Of a DNA stretch of 64,000 bases, positions 3,152-9,981 are shown in pieces. The stretch's first letter is position 1; each line of letters opens with the position of its first letter. The translations under genes and the position numbers were made by a program. Below the pieces are notes generated by a model. It was not told the DNA's origin and made no database searches. It was given only the letters and a program-made list of their open reading frames with translations. This DNA comes from Bifidobacterium animalis subsp. animalis ATCC 25527 (GTDB lineage Bacteria > Actinomycetota > Actinomycetes > Actinomycetales > Bifidobacteriaceae), in contig NC_017834.1 of assembly GCF_000260715.1 (NCBI RefSeq), positions 682,001-746,000 on the forward strand. The letters run 5' to 3'.

Positions 3152-4327
3152 TCAGAGCTGCTGCAGTGCCTGCTCCAAGTCGGCAATGAGATCGCCGGCA
3201 TCTTCGATGCCGATGGACAGGCGCACGAGGTTGGCGGGAACCTCGAGTGTCGTGCCTGAAACCGAGGCATGGGTCATTGCCGCCGGCACTTCGATGAGCG
3301 ATTCCACGCCACCGAGCGACTCGGCGAGCGTGAACAGCCGTGTCGAGGAGGTGAAACGCTGTGCCGCTTCAGGGCCGCCGGCAAGTTGCACTGAGATCAT
3401 GCCGCCGAAACCGCCATGCATTTGCCGCGCGGCGATCTCGTGACCCGGATGAGACTCCAGACCCGGGTACCAGACGCGCTCGATCTCGGGGCGGCTTTCC
3501 AGCCATTGCGCGATTTCCAAGGCATTCGCACTGTGTTTGCGCACGCGCAGGTCAAGTGTTTTCAATCCGCGAATGTCGAGCCACGAATCGAACGGAGACG
3601 GCACTGCGCCGGCGGCGTTCTGCAGGAAGGCCACGGCGTCGGCGACCTGGGGGTCGTTGACGAGCACCGCCCCACCGACCACGTCCGAGTGTCCTCCGAT
3701 GTATTTGGTGGTGGAGTACACCACGGCGTCGGCGCCATCGGCGAGCGGATGCTGCAGAATCGGTGATGCGAACGTGTTGTCCACCACCACTTTCGTGCCG
3801 TGTTCATGGGCGAGCTGAGCCGTCAATGCGATGTCGGTGATGCCAAGCAGCGGGTTCGATGGCGTCTCCACCCATACATACCGATACGATTTGGCACCCA
3901 GGGCCGCATTCAGCGCCGCGACATCGGTGGTGTCCACCACGTCGAGTTCCACGCCCCATGGCACGAACACTTTGGACAGCAGGCGATATGTACCGCCGTA
4001 CACGTCGTTGCCAATGAGAATCGAGTCACCCGGGCGCATTGTGGCACGCAGCAGCACATCGATTGCCGCCAGTCCCGACGAGAAGCTCATTGAGAACGCC
4101 GCGCCCTCCACTGCGGCAAGCTGTTCGTCGAACGACGTGCGCGTGGGGTTCACCGACCGTGAGTAGTCGTAGCCGCCGCGCAATCCGCCCACGCCGTCCT
4201 GCTTGAACGTCGAGGTCATGTAGATGGGAGTGGAGACGGCGCCTGTGAGCGCGTCCGGTTCCTGCCCGGCATGGATTGCGCGGGTCGCGATGCCGTCGTG
4301 AGCGTAGTTGGTGTCTGCCTTGGCCAT
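3152..4327 (-). CDS. metB: Cystathionine gamma-synthase / gamma-lyase (Cys/Met metabolism PLP enzyme)
   Basis: PLP-dependent enzyme of the Cys/Met metabolism family, 391 residues, a normal length. It makes cystathionine from an activated homoserine and cysteine, or cleaves cystathionine to cysteine; sequence alone does not settle which. Features seen are the PLP lysine in STTKYIGGHSDVVGG, the substrate-loop region YDYSRSVNPT, and ESLGGVESLIEVPAAMTHAS near the C-terminus. The ATG at 4327 has an AGGA site about 6 bases upstream; the frame extends further 5' but without family similarity. It follows the CBS/CysK-type gene on the same strand after 71 bases. The pair suggests transsulfuration, with reverse flow (gamma-lyase) a real alternative. 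Confidence 0.85.
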   Translation of the reverse strand: MAKADTNYAHDGIATRAIHAGQEPDALTGAVSTPIYMTSTFKQDGVGGLRGGYDYSRSVNPTRTSFDEQLAAVEGAAFSMSFSSGLAAIDVLLRATMRPGDSILIGNDVYGGTYRLLSKVFVPWGVELDVVDTTDVAALNAALGAKSYRYVWVETPSNPLLGITDIALTAQLAHEHGTKVVVDNTFASPILQHPLADGADAVVYSTTKYIGGHSDVVGGAVLVNDPQVADAVAFLQNAAGAVPSPFDSWLDIRGLKTLDLRVRKHSANALEIAQWLESRPEIERVWYPGLESHPGHEIAARQMHGGFGGMISVQLAGGPEAAQRFTSSTRLFTLAESLGGVESLIEVPAAMTHASVSGTTLEVPANLVRLSIGIEDAGDLIADLEQALQQL

Positions 4328-4398
4328 GGTATTCCTGTTCTCGAAAAGTCTGCCTGTGTTGATTGTGCCTTGTGCTTGCCGTGTTCGTGTGCGCGATC

Positions 4399-5803: not shown

Positions 5804-7759
5804 TCACGAGGCGTTGTCGAAGATTCGAATGACCTCCATGAACCGTTTGCCGTAGCGTTCGAGCTTGTTGGCTCCCGCGCCGTTGACCTCGAGGAACTCT
5901 TTCGACGTGTGCGGGTGCCGTTCGGCCATGTCGCGCAGTGCGCGATCCGAGAACACAATGTAGGGCGGCTTGCCTATCTCGCGTGCGATCTGCATGCGCA
6001 GGGCACGCAAGTGCTCGAACAGTTCCGCGTCCACGCCGGTGTTGGCGCCTAAGCCTGCGGCGGCACGTTCGCCGGCACTCAGTTTCGTGGACTTCGCCTC
6101 TCCGCTGCTTCGTGACTTCGACTTGCGCTCCGATTTCTTGATCTCGTATCGGAACGTGGGTGCCACGGTTTCCGCGGCGCGGGGGCCGAACTGCACGAGC
6201 GGCAGCCGCCCCTCGCTCACCGTGAGGAAGCCGTCGGCCACCATCTGGTTGAGCACGTCGCGAATCTTGGCTTCGTTCACTTCGCTCAGGCGGCCGTACG
6301 TGGGCACCGCATCCAATCCGCGATTGGCGAGATCCTGCGCTTTGGAGCCGCGCAGCACCTGCACGACCTTGCCCATGCCGTAATGCTGGCCCAGATCATG
6401 CACGCACATGCTGATCGCGCGTGCGACGGCGGAGGCGTCCACCGTTTCGAAGGTGCTTTCGCAGTTGACGCATCCGCCTATGCAATGGCCGTTCGCCGAG
6501 CGTTCGGTTCCGTTCGATTCCCCGAAATACCGTGTCATGTAGTCGTGCAGGCAGTCCGTGGTTCTGCAGTAGCCGATCATGGCATCGAGCAGTTGCCGTT
6601 TCGAGCGCCGCACCACCTCCTGCTCCTCGGGGGTGAGCCGCTCGTTGCGATCCGCCATGTCGAGCAGGCGACGCCGTGTCACAATGTCCGACTCGTTCCA
6701 CAGCAACATGCATCGGCTTGGTTCGCCGTCGCGCCCCGCACGGCCGGCCTCCTGATAGTACGCCTCTATGCTCTCGGGCATGTTGTGGTGGATTACATAG
6801 CGAACGTTCGATTTGTCGATGCCCATGCCGAACGCGTTCGTCGCGACGACGAGCGGCACCGTGTCGGTGACGAAATCACGTTGCGCGCGTTCGCGAACAT
6901 TCGCCGGCATGCCGCCGTGGTATGCCGCGGCGATGGGTCCATCTTCCATCTGGGAGCCCTGTGCCTTGCGTAACTGCGGCACCATGATGTTGAGTGTCTG
7001 CGCGAGCGCCTCCGTCTCCTTGCGGGTCGCGCAATACACAATGCCGGATTCGTCGGCATGCTCGGCCACGTAGTGCGCTATCCAGTTCGCCTTTTCGCGC
7101 GTGTTGAGCTTGAGCATGTCGAAATACAGATTCGTTCTGTCGAATCCCGTCACCATGACGAGCGGGTTGCGCAAACCCAGCAGATTGACGATGTCCCGGC
7201 GCACGCGTTCGGTCGCCGTCGCCGTGAACGCGGCCACTGTGGGGCGGTCTGGCAGCGAGTCGATGAACTCGCCGATCGCCAGGTACGACGAGCGGAAATC
7301 CTGACCCCACTGCGACACGCAATGCGCCTCGTCGACGGCGAACAGCGCGATATCAGCATGTGTGGCGAATGCGCGGAACCGTGCCGTCTCCAACCGCTCT
7401 GGAGCGACGTACAGCAGCTTCACCTTACCGGCATTGGCGGCGTCGAACACCTGCTGTTGCTCGTCAGGGGTCTGCGTGGTGTTGATGAATGCGGCCGGTA
7501 TGCCGATCTCGTTCGCACCGTCCACCTGGTCGCGCATCAGCGAGATCAGCGGGGAGATCACAATGGTGATGCCATGCAGCAGCAGCGAGGGAATCTGGTA
7601 GCAGACCGATTTGCCGGAGCCCGTGGGCATCACGCCGAGCACGTCGCGCCCTTCGAGAATGGCGTTGATGAGCTCCGCCTGACCGGGGCGGAAGCTCTCA
7701 TAGCCGAAGTACTTGCGCAATGTGGCGAGTGCGGAACTCTCTTCATGCTCGTTCGTCAT
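5804..7759 (-). CDS. recQ: ATP-dependent DNA helicase RecQ
   Basis: 3'-5' superfamily 2 helicase for recombination and replication-fork repair, 651 residues. Domains in order: helicase core with Walker A MPTGSGKS, the DEAH box in AVDEAHCVSQWGQDFR, the ATA motif in TATATERVR, and motif VI QEAGRAGRDG. A zinc-binding four-Cys cluster follows (YC..TDC ... CIGGCVNC), then a winged-helix RQC region. A C-terminal HRDC-like domain (LFEHLRALRMQIAREIGKPP) comes after a basic, Ser-rich linker. The length and full motif set indicate an intact enzyme. The ribosome-binding site is weak. It is transcribed alone, divergently from the DUF559 gene. Confidence 0.95.
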   Translation of the reverse strand: MTNEHEESSALATLRKYFGYESFRPGQAELINAILEGRDVLGVMPTGSGKSVCYQIPSLLLHGITIVISPLISLMRDQVDGANEIGIPAAFINTTQTPDEQQQVFDAANAGKVKLLYVAPERLETARFRAFATHADIALFAVDEAHCVSQWGQDFRSSYLAIGEFIDSLPDRPTVAAFTATATERVRRDIVNLLGLRNPLVMVTGFDRTNLYFDMLKLNTREKANWIAHYVAEHADESGIVYCATRKETEALAQTLNIMVPQLRKAQGSQMEDGPIAAAYHGGMPANVRERAQRDFVTDTVPLVVATNAFGMGIDKSNVRYVIHHNMPESIEAYYQEAGRAGRDGEPSRCMLLWNESDIVTRRRLLDMADRNERLTPEEQEVVRRSKRQLLDAMIGYCRTTDCLHDYMTRYFGESNGTERSANGHCIGGCVNCESTFETVDASAVARAISMCVHDLGQHYGMGKVVQVLRGSKAQDLANRGLDAVPTYGRLSEVNEAKIRDVLNQMVADGFLTVSEGRLPLVQFGPRAAETVAPTFRYEIKKSERKSKSRSSGEAKSTKLSAGERAAAGLGANTGVDAELFEHLRALRMQIAREIGKPPYIVFSDRALRDMAERHPHTSKEFLEVNGAGANKLERYGKRFMEVIRIFDNAS

Positions 7760-7820
7760 AGTGTTCCAGTGTAATCAGTGGGCGCGTGGAACATGGCGAC
7801 ACTCCAGAATGACATTCTCG

Positions 7821-7960
7821 CTATGGAGTGAACAAATCTGCGTTATAGAGTGAACATTGCAGATTGTCTCAGCATATAGATCCTTGAAATTCCAGCGTTT
7901 TCCAGACTGCGTATCAGGTATCTGTTCACCCCATAACGCAGATCTGCTCACTCCATAACG
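7821..7960. repeat. 140-bp motif array, copy 1 (two direct plus two inverted 15-bp motifs)
   Basis: The motif GTTATGGAGTGAACA (with variants) occurs at 7821-7834 and 7842-7856 in plus orientation, and again at 7923-7938 and 7945-7960 in minus orientation. The two arms (36 and 38 bases) are near-perfect inverted repeats and flank a 66-base spacer. The same arrangement, with identical arm and spacer lengths, recurs at 8995-9134 on the other side of the DUF559 gene. It could be an operator array, a pair of transposase-binding ends or a long hairpin. The outer left copy begins CTATGGAGTGAACA, resembling the stop-codon region of the neighbouring gene. Confidence 0.85.
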
Positions 7961-8060
7961 CAGGAAATTCTACTGTGAACGATGTGGATAACTCATTGTT
8001 ACATATCCACAATGCCCGGTTGGGATTGTGCCCGAATCTGCGCGCCCATAGGGTCGATAT

Positions 8061-9005
8061 ATGAGTTTCGAAGAGAGTGATTCACTTACGCGATTGCGTG
8101 AGGCGAGCGAAGAGGCGGCGCGTGAGTGCAGGAGGTTTCGTGCTGAGCACAAGTTCGGTTTGGTCTATGTGTTTGGCATGACGAGAGCATTGCGGTTGGC
8201 GGGGGTGGAGATTCCGCGGATTGATTTGAGTGCGCATCCGCGTCTCAGTGAGCAACGCATGCAGCTGGTGGTGCGAAACAAGAATCTGGAACCGCGTGTG
8301 CGAGCTCAGGACGCCAATCGCATGCTGGCAGTGTATGTGTGGAATGCCCCGATGGATTTCGCATGTTTCGGCGATGACCTCATATTCACATCACCGATTT
8401 GCACATGGGCGATGCTGGCTCGGTTCTTGAGTCTGGAGGAACTCATCGTTCTTGGCGACTCCATACTGCGGCGCAACACTGTGCATCGGCAATACTCACA
8501 GGCGGATTTCAAGAACTTTCTAACAGCGCTTCGTGCGGTGAAGGGGCGCCGTGCTCCTCGCGGCATTGTGAAATGCGAACGCGCGCTCACGCTGATGAGA
8601 CCGGGCACGGACTCGAGTCAGGAGACTAAATTGAGGCTATGCATTGTGCAGCACGGTTTGCCCATGCCTATGATTAATCACCGGATTCGTGCCATCAACG
8701 GTAATGTCTATTACCTCGATCTGGCTTATCCTGACGCCAAAATCGCGATTGAGTACGACGGCATGTTCCATTCGGGGCAATGGCTGCACGACAGTGACCG
8801 GCGAAACGCAATCGAGGCATCCGGCTGGGTGTTCATACAGGTGACGAAGACCTCACTAGGCGACTATTCTCACCGACTTATGCTCGTTCGGCGAATCGCC
8901 CACGAGTTGGAGATGCGCACTGGCATCCACTATTTTGTTGACGCGCAGACTCCGCTCACTGAGTTAGTCAAGCCCAAAAATCTAAAGACGTTAGCTATGG
9001 CGTGA
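8061..9005 (+). CDS. AbiEi-like / DUF559 (Vsr-fold endonuclease-like) protein
   Basis: A 314-residue protein. The middle (TSPICTWAMLARFLSLEELIVLGDSILRR) resembles the C-terminal part of AbiEi-type antitoxin-like proteins. The C-terminal third (YYLDLAYPDAKIAIEYDG, then H, then D..R and GW.FIQVT) matches the DUF559/Vsr-like PD-(D/E)XK fold, with plausible catalytic D, E and K-like positions. Such proteins are frequent and mostly uncharacterised in actinobacteria. The start has AGGGTC about 6 bases upstream. No partner toxin gene is adjacent. The stop codon lies inside the second 140-bp motif array, so the gene is tightly embedded between the two arrays. Function is unknown; DNA binding or nicking is inferred only from the fold. 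Confidence 0.75.
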   Translation: MSFEESDSLTRLREASEEAARECRRFRAEHKFGLVYVFGMTRALRLAGVEIPRIDLSAHPRLSEQRMQLVVRNKNLEPRVRAQDANRMLAVYVWNAPMDFACFGDDLIFTSPICTWAMLARFLSLEELIVLGDSILRRNTVHRQYSQADFKNFLTALRAVKGRRAPRGIVKCERALTLMRPGTDSSQETKLRLCIVQHGLPMPMINHRIRAINGNVYYLDLAYPDAKIAIEYDGMFHSGQWLHDSDRRNAIEASGWVFIQVTKTSLGDYSHRLMLVRRIAHELEMRTGIHYFVDAQTPLTELVKPKNLKTLAMA

Positions 9006-9134
9006 ACAAAGTTTTGTTATGGAGTGAACGTCTCTTGTGACTATATGTCAGAAAACGGTGATTTTCCAACGTTTCATAGATTCCCAGATTTGTTTGTGTT
9101 CACTCCGTAGCGCAGAATTGTTCACTCCATAACG
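8995..9134. repeat. 140-bp motif array, copy 2
   Basis: Second array with the same geometry as 7821-7960. Plus-orientation motifs lie at 8995-9008 and 9016-9030, then a 66-base spacer, then minus-orientation motifs at 9097-9112 and 9119-9134. Arms are again 36 and 38 bases. The spacers of the two arrays share a central stretch (roughly TTCCAxCGTTT) but are otherwise diverged. The first motif supplies the TGA stop of the DUF559 gene (9003-9005). Confidence 0.85.
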
Positions 9135-9142
9135 AAACACGG

Positions 9143-9700
9143 TTAAGCGATGAGCGTCTCCCACTGCTCGCGTGTCATTCGATTCACATGTTCGGTGCGC
9201 GTTTCGCCAAGCAGCGGCACCGGCACGTTCTGTGCGACGCGTATGGGTTCGAAACCGATCTTCTCCTGAGTGCGCGCCGATTTCGTGTTGCCCTCGTAAT
9301 ACGCGCACCAGATTGCGCTGAGTCCCAGATCTTCAAAGTCGCGGCGCAACAGTTCGCGGGCCGCTTCGGGAATGTAACCGTTGCCCCAGAACGGTTCGCC
9401 AATCCAGAATCCCATTTCCGCCTGCGTCGCGTCGTTTGCCGGGAAGAAATCGGAGTTGCCGGCGAGCTTGAGGGAGATGGCTCCGATTGCGGTGTCCGGA
9501 TCGTCGGCGAGTGCGATTGCATAGTCCTCCGGGCCATCGAACACATTGCGGATCACGTCCAAGCTTTCCTCGACGCTCTGGTGAGGCGGCCAGCCGGCGA
9601 TGGGGCCGATGTTTGGGTTCTTTGCGTATTCGTACAGTGCCGCCGCGTCCGATTCCCGCCATGGCCGCAATACGAGACGTCCGGTGTACAGTGTGGGCAT
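9143..9700 (-). CDS. GNAT family N-acetyltransferase (RimJ/RimL-like)
   Basis: Acetyltransferase of 185 residues using acetyl-CoA; the acceptor is unknown. The N-terminus (TGRLVLRPWRESDAAALYEY) and the acetyl-CoA-binding region (FWGNGYIPEAARELLRRDF, then NTKSARTQEKIGFEPIR) are typical of the RimJ/RimL subgroup, which acetylates protein N-termini or small molecules. The ATG at 9700 has AAAGGA about 6 bases upstream, so the longer open frame is ignored. Its stop codon is only 9 bases from the second motif array. Confidence 0.85.
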   Translation of the reverse strand: MPTLYTGRLVLRPWRESDAAALYEYAKNPNIGPIAGWPPHQSVEESLDVIRNVFDGPEDYAIALADDPDTAIGAISLKLAGNSDFFPANDATQAEMGFWIGEPFWGNGYIPEAARELLRRDFEDLGLSAIWCAYYEGNTKSARTQEKIGFEPIRVAQNVPVPLLGETRTEHVNRMTREQWETLIA

Positions 9701-9981
9701 GGTGTTCCTTTCTGGTTGCGTATTGCTTGCCAGCGTACCGCATGGCCGATTCTCTATGCCATGGCATCCCAGCGCGGGCATCCGAATAGCAAGTCTTGGA
9801 TTGGAGTAGGCAGAGGGCGACCGCATGCCGGGATGACGACCACCTCATCCGCAAGGTTGAGAAGGAGCCTTAGCGGCGTGGAGATTCATTCCCTGGCCTG
9901 ATGGGATGCGCCGGGTTTTCTTCGTATCTTGGAACCATCGCAACAAGGGCGGCGAGACCGCCACGGATGGAAGGAAATACG

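Follow-up and report, generated by a model that had tools for sequence, protein, structure and literature searches.

Palindromic DNA arrays beside DUF559 nuclease-like genes in Bifidobacterium

Why should a nuclease-like gene lie between two arrays of inverted repeats that share one geometry? The question is raised by a stretch of 64,000 nucleotides (nt) of Bifidobacterium animalis subsp. animalis ATCC 25527 (NC_017834.1, positions 682,001 to 746,000; hereafter, ‘the window’), from a genome that is a single contig of 1.93 Mb. Here, a gene matching the Pfam family DUF559 (22.4 bits, cut-off 20.6) has a RecQ-type gene on one side and a GNAT gene on the other. Our analysis suggests, with a probability of about 0.55, that such arrays form a dispersed and discrete DNA element with the DUF559 protein as dedicated partner, in a REPIN-RAYT-like system built on a different nuclease. 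In the open-licence literature, we found no description of DUF559 together with repeats, and no paper that mentions both DUF559 and Bifidobacterium.

Palindromic arrays beside DUF559 genes

Direct reading and a repeat search bear out an initial annotation of this DNA, which had described two 140-base-pair (bp) arrays of the same geometry flanking the gene. Each comprises two direct boxes, a spacer and two inverted boxes, with a box pitch of 22 bp (Table 1). The arm lengths given there, 36 and 38 bases, depend on where the arm is cut, and our repeat tool returns 38–39 nt; the claim that the second array supplies the stop codon of the gene holds, as the TGA lies inside the first box of that array. 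The four-box pattern, allowing at most 3 mismatches, occurs at exactly three places in the genome. The third copy, of the same geometry (G000:C1:298605-298744), has a glutamyl-tRNA-synthetase-like gene on one side and genes for tRNA-Glu and tRNA-Gln on the other, with the nearest DUF559 paralogue approximately 7 kb away. None of the other 111 Bifidobacterium genomes contains the pattern, a reversed four-box control pattern gave 0 matches, and a search for plasmid relatives of the left array gave no match.

Linkage across the genus becomes visible when repeats are sought by form. DUF559 relatives are present in 81 of 112 Bifidobacterium genomes. Our set of 72 loci combined 30 returned by the search with 40 retrieved in addition and the two own-genome paralogues; they are the best-scoring of more than 150 matches listed and not a random draw. 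L186, the same copy as L187, was dropped before counting, and one locus with too short a 3′ sequence was left out on that side. By one inverted-repeat test, a repeat lies within 500 nt 3′ of the stop in 56 of 71 loci and in the next 500 nt in 3 of 71. On the 5′ side the corresponding counts are 15/72 and 0/72, and the first 500 nt inside the gene contain none (0/72). The distance from stop to repeat has a median of 41 nt and is at most 25 nt in 24 of the 56. A strict array scan of 30 DUF559 loci found none outside the own genome; a relaxed inverted-repeat scan found a repeat in 26 of the 30.

The sequence of the boxes follows the gene. Two more DUF559 paralogues are encoded in the own genome, one of which (L046:4918-5910) is likewise bracketed by arrays, with boxes quite different from those in the window (GTTACGGGCTA-like, pitch approximately 19 bp, spacer 93 bp; the two arrays share 81% identity). 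The other (L045) is followed, 62 nt past its stop, by a perfect inverted repeat of 24 nt. Twelve copies of the L046 array family (family B) were found, the bracketing two included, all within 85 kb around the nuclease gene, and copies of two other array families share this stretch with them (G000:C1:274000-360000). At ten loci with arrays on both sides, three of which are orthologues, the two sides carry similar boxes (similarity 11–58, compared with 5–6 for unrelated arrays). Boxes are alike in 1 of 25 pairs of paralogues within a genome and in 73% of 113 cross-genome pairs with protein identity of at least 60%. Box similarity increases with protein identity and, after thinning to 25 proteins with less than 60% identity, the Mantel r is 0.32 (p = 0.002), in a comparison whose protein pairs are not independent. 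Because paralogues of one genome mostly have different boxes, species relatedness alone cannot explain the match of box to gene. These comparisons make it very probable that the arrays belong to the DUF559 gene, that their boxes are gene-specific and that their copies are dispersed; the association made in the initial annotation thus stands.

The same results bear on whether the arrays could be miniature inverted-repeat transposable elements of an unrelated transposase, or mark a hot spot of insertion whose preference for DUF559 genes is incidental. Palindromic, dispersed units of 140–200 bp would suit that explanation. However, box sequence tracks the DUF559 gene even among paralogues of one genome, no target duplication was seen, and the recQ control (from which L047, the own recQ locus, was dropped) lacks the linkage 3′ (0/29) and rarely has it 5′ (2/29), so that we regard such an origin as highly improbable.

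Dispersed copies and the form of the unit

A covariance model built from 34 arrays also recovers arrays outside its training set, and it gave no match in 20 genomes from other families that had shown no hit to PF18741, a model related to DUF559. At most 34 candidates were scored per genome, so array counts are lower bounds. Array matches occur in at least 70 of the 112 Bifidobacterium genomes, comprising 63 of the 81 with a DUF559 gene and 7 of the 31 without. In three complete genomes, 22, 33 and 22 array places were listed, all dispersed inverted-repeat units, with no significant deviation from a uniform spread (p = 0.26, 0.07 and 0.07). In another complete genome (G014), paired arrays lie 221–242 bp apart at 92475/92696, 527438/527660, 1093400/1093622 and 1988409/1988651. 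An array private to its own genome was rejected as a candidate, since the box differs by gene and the structure-based search finds arrays in 70/112 genomes. According to the initial annotation, arrays scattered without DUF559 neighbours would have spoken against an association; such arrays exist, yet so does the linkage, and both hold, as with REPINs.

Many arrays are present in five of the seven array-positive genomes without a DUF559 gene. A profile search found short DUF559-like pieces (E < 0.01) in three of these (G006, G055 and G017); in G059 it returned no more than a doubtful piece (E = 0.07), and in G045 nothing. The arrays of G045 and G059 have near-perfect central palindromes of 34 bp, GAGTATGAGCGTTGGAATTCCAACGCTCATACTC-like.

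Where its ends were examined, the unit is well delimited. In one genome (G052), 19 copies align over 206 columns with zero gaps, parts of the spacers being nearly without information, and relatedness ends beyond approximately 196 columns, pairwise identity being 0.70 inside and 0.26 in the flanks. It is symmetric about one centre along its whole length, with 72% complementarity that falls to 19–28% when slid, and some variable positions covary between the arms (for example, 16/19 paired, 8.1 expected). Three motifs recur among 53 distinct centres, relative to mononucleotide shuffling: CGCCATT in 11 (0.2 expected), TTCC(A/G)nC in 13 (2.0 expected) and GTAT or ATAC in 33 (15.9 expected). Recurring cores are common to families with different boxes, and the window cores fit TTCC(A/G)nC. 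The two cores in the window read in the same direction; in Pseudoscardovia L277, the two copies are inverted.

Long stems and some covarying pairs could also be those of a structured RNA, such as a regulatory RNA, a terminator or an RNA antitoxin. Mismatches between the arms do not favour G–U, with 58 G–T and 61 A–C in gene orientation; no Rfam family exceeded its threshold in the arrays scanned, and the box-to-box spacing is exact. We give this explanation almost no weight, an RNA element being rejected on the Rfam result and the absence of G–U bias. Given that absence, it is as DNA that the unit seems to act. We likewise rejected the idea that the arrays are the ends of a single composite transposon, since every array forms a complete palindrome around a core of its own. 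The suggestion that the arrays are ends of a small mobile unit was only half right: each array of 140–200 bp is a unit by itself, and not one end.

Box constraint and a candidate mechanism

The predicted structure of the window protein agrees with its being nuclease-like and AbiEi-like, as the initial annotation had it. Residues 21–180 (approximately) align with residues 57–195 of the AbiEi antitoxin, and residues 183–288 (approximately) match the Vsr/I-Bth0305I nuclease fold, with the EDxHD/Vsr catalytic fold and residues present in the model. The putative active-site residues E188, D220, H237 and D244 are invariant or almost so. The protein is thus predicted to be an AbiEi C-terminal-like domain fused to a Vsr/I-Bth0305I nuclease fold. 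Only 20 residues precede the AbiEi-like domain in the model, leaving no room for the AbiEi winged helix. The AbiEi Pfam model does not match the window protein, a PDB search gave no sequence match, and a large protein database gave 11 matches. One protein with 96% identity (P0001, 231 member sequences) has a different C-terminus (LVKRR), and the gene–array junction may accordingly differ in this relative.

Eight orthologous array comparisons (five between G030 and G041, three between G033 and G062) reveal constraint on the boxes, in arrays located by the covariance model and thus biased towards intact arms. Differences were counted at 7 of 320 positions in inner boxes, at 48 of 559 in inner spacers and, outer boxes included, at 139 of 1606 in the flanks, so that inner boxes diverge approximately four times less than spacers. 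Five copies that are not beside a DUF559 gene, as judged from the DUF559 matches listed, show 4/200 differences in inner boxes and 21/341 in spacers (p = 0.03). The copies are therefore maintained, unlike a purely passive repeat, and nothing else speaks as strongly for a lasting role as this constraint on boxes at fixed places. The idea that the arrays are the protein's own sites gains from boxes that are gene-specific and constrained; binding itself we infer from sequence.

Such constraint raises the question of whether the arrays are simply maintained sites. DUF559 would then be a sequence-specific DNA-binding protein and the arrays would serve regulation or chromosome organization, immobile by its action, with the nuclease fold used for binding or for a rare reaction. 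The fourfold better conservation of inner boxes at orthologous places, the stability of array places among close species and the exact spacing, with no indel in 19 copies, fit this explanation. However, the four putative active-site residues are nearly invariant, boxes specific to each paralogue and presence or absence between species suit a selfish pair better, and array places that do not deviate significantly from a uniform spread lend a macrodomain no support. We consider maintained sites possible but unlikely.

We prefer a dispersed element with a dedicated partner, which by analogy may work in the manner of REPIN-RAYT systems, built on an unrelated nuclease that acts on the element and spreads it. 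As no move has been seen, we put this manner of working at only slightly better than even. The DUF559 protein, probably dimeric, would bind its own element at the boxes of both arms, and its nuclease domain would nick or cut near the core. Repair of those breaks could spread or renew array copies over long times, and bound sites may exert some effect on the host that keeps the boxes intact. The DUF559 gene, which is free-standing and adjoins whole arrays, is probably domesticated rather than freely mobile.

Several observations weigh against a dispersed element spread by its partner. No transposition was seen, and cases of presence and absence (the recQ 5′ region in G041 and G030; L055 and its relatives) show neither target duplication nor clean ends. 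The initial annotation had proposed comparing strains for empty sites, and no clean empty site or target duplication emerged at the regions compared: in G033, G061 and G062, no target duplication was found, the extra 1.1 kb of G033 is other sequence, and each genome holds an array by eye, one of them unlisted by the model. All five G030 arrays compared have a same-place counterpart in syntenic stretches of G041. Box constraint is also the strongest point against a simple mobile repeat, as boxes that stay frozen while spacers diverge freely resemble binding sites under maintenance more than copies made recently. The partnership itself has gaps: at the strict setting, 18 of the 81 DUF559-positive genomes gave no array; G045 and G059 are rich in arrays, with no intact DUF559 gene found; the twelve family B copies found all lie within 85 kb; and the paralogues L043 and L082, with 63% identity, have no common boxes. 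The DUF559-like pieces in gene-less genomes are weak evidence of gene decay, because the array-free G075 also has one (E = 0.006), and they may be other nucleases.

Relatives beyond the genus and known systems

Named relatives found by peptide pattern belong to Bifidobacteriaceae and one Cellulomonas, whose DUF559-like gene is bracketed by palindromes. Three copies of a 66–68 bp palindrome lie near it (L276: 413–480, 2230–2295, 3068–3133). In Pseudoscardovia radai (L277), inverted array copies are located approximately 0.15 kb 3′ and 1.9 kb 5′ of the DUF559 gene; a 443-nt inverted repeat of 99% identity (158–600, 3501–3943) surrounds the gene region, adjoined by an 84-bp tandem repeat (3774–4359). 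A wider set included 20 actinobacterial regions hand-picked among matches with frames of approximately 300–360 residues; after L294, L305 and L316 were dropped (no profile match), it comprised 26 loci outside Bifidobacteriaceae, Cellulomonas included. Palindromes border the gene in 9 of the 26 (8 at the 5′ side, 3 at the 3′ side) and in none of the other 17, and control windows 600 and 1000 nt away contain them in 1/26, 0/25, 0/20 and 0/25. In one genome (G232), the gene-bracketing palindrome occurs at 13 dispersed places, with 0 in five other genomes, and the protein matches the AbiEi winged-helix model.

Because border repeats outside Bifidobacterium are mostly 5′ and the G232 protein has this match, operators are a live rival there. 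The arrays would then be the operator of an AbiEi-type (type IV toxin–antitoxin) regulator fused to a nuclease, with gene-side arrays as promoter sites. There is a precedent in AbiEi and Rv2827c, each of which binds paired inverted repeats of 23 bp within its own promoter (PMC7319586). In Bifidobacterium, however, arrays are chiefly 3′, many copies are distant from any DUF559 gene, and the window protein matches AbiEi only from residue 57. A Pfam scan of the two genes flanking the unit and two further genes returned RecQ, GNAT, DUF1706 and a PLP-dependent enzyme (PALP), with no AbiEii nucleotidyltransferase toxin. Autoregulation, offered in the initial annotation, is improbable here and fits poorly as the whole story. 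As to a toxin–antitoxin or defence cassette, also suggested there, the scanned neighbours are the four just named, and the sole defence-model match is weak and of nuclease type (PADLOC mREase_II, E = 0.0058). In the closest relative by recQ (G017), gene order is unlike that of the window, and recQ is preceded by an open reading frame (L048), which we take to resemble a metB-type gene.

Table 1. Coordinates of the arrays, the DUF559 gene and neighbouring genes in the window
Feature	Position	Strand	Basis or remark
Left palindromic array, 140 bp	7820..7959	.	Repeat search; covariance-model match 7837-7942, 53.8 bits
Left array, direct boxes (15 bp)	7820-7834, 7842-7856	+	
Left array, spacer (66 bp)	7857-7922		
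Left array, inverted boxes (15 bp)	7923-7937, 7945-7959	-	
Left array core ccttgaaattccagcgttt	7882..7900	+	Read directly; resembles TTCC(A/G)nC core of other arrays
DUF559 gene, 314 codons	8061..9005	+	Frame list, profile matches and structure prediction
Stop codon TGA of DUF559 gene	9003..9005	+	Within first box of right array
Right palindromic array, 140 bp	8994..9133	.	Repeat search; covariance-model match 9012-9116, 20.3 bits
Right array, direct boxes (15 bp)	8994-9008, 9016-9030	+	
Right array, spacer (66 bp)	9031-9096		
Right array, inverted boxes (15 bp)	9097-9111, 9119-9133	-	
Right array core	9057..9075	+	Read directly
RecQ-type helicase gene, outside unit; control family	5804..7759	-	Pfam scan
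GNAT acetyltransferase gene, outside unit	9143..9826	-	Pfam scan

Of 246 genomes sampled from the phylum, 99 matched the PF18741 model. We tentatively propose, at somewhat less than even odds, an Actinobacteria-wide class of chromosomal nuclease–repeat partnerships independent of RAYTs. In this class, solitary AbiEi–Vsr (DUF559/MTES_1575) proteins would each own private palindromic elements, with their own boxes and a common core, and would spread and keep them, and the host would by now rely on them. DUF559 is by name a domain of unknown function, and a gene-by-gene code of protein and box would supply it with a testable partner. Genomes with several paralogues offer natural sets of matched protein–site pairs for tests of recognition, binding and cutting. 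If the pairs behave in the REPIN-RAYT manner, two unrelated nucleases have given rise to one and the same life style; such a twofold origin, if true, is relevant to the reasons for which bacteria retain these repeats and to palindromic repeats with no known partner, such as the CGTC REPs (PMC3733652).

In REPIN-RAYT systems (PMC3116915, PMC3733652), as with the arrays, inverted-repeat units are dispersed and copies adjoin a nuclease gene dedicated to them, a genome contains several families that each have a gene of their own, and repeat and protein co-evolve. RAYTs, however, are tyrosine (Y1) transposases, whereas the window protein belongs to Pfam DUF559 and its model resembles I-Bth0305I and Vsr; on this account the arrays and their gene are not a REPIN-RAYT system proper. 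REPs are 20–40 bp with GTAG/CGTC tags, in contrast to units of 140–200 bp that often have two or more boxes per arm, at fixed spacing, and often a common core; constraint on boxes at fixed places is a further difference. EDxHD homing endonucleases (I-Bth0305I, PMC3943268) differ in that the gene here is free-standing and has its own dispersed palindromic arrays. The AbiE type IV toxin–antitoxin system (PMC7319586) differs in several respects: the window protein has a nuclease domain in place of the winged helix, no AbiEii toxin is among the scanned neighbours, and the arrays are mostly 3′ and dispersed. Finally, unlike the Vsr very-short-patch repair endonuclease, the system described here has repeats and an AbiEi-like domain.
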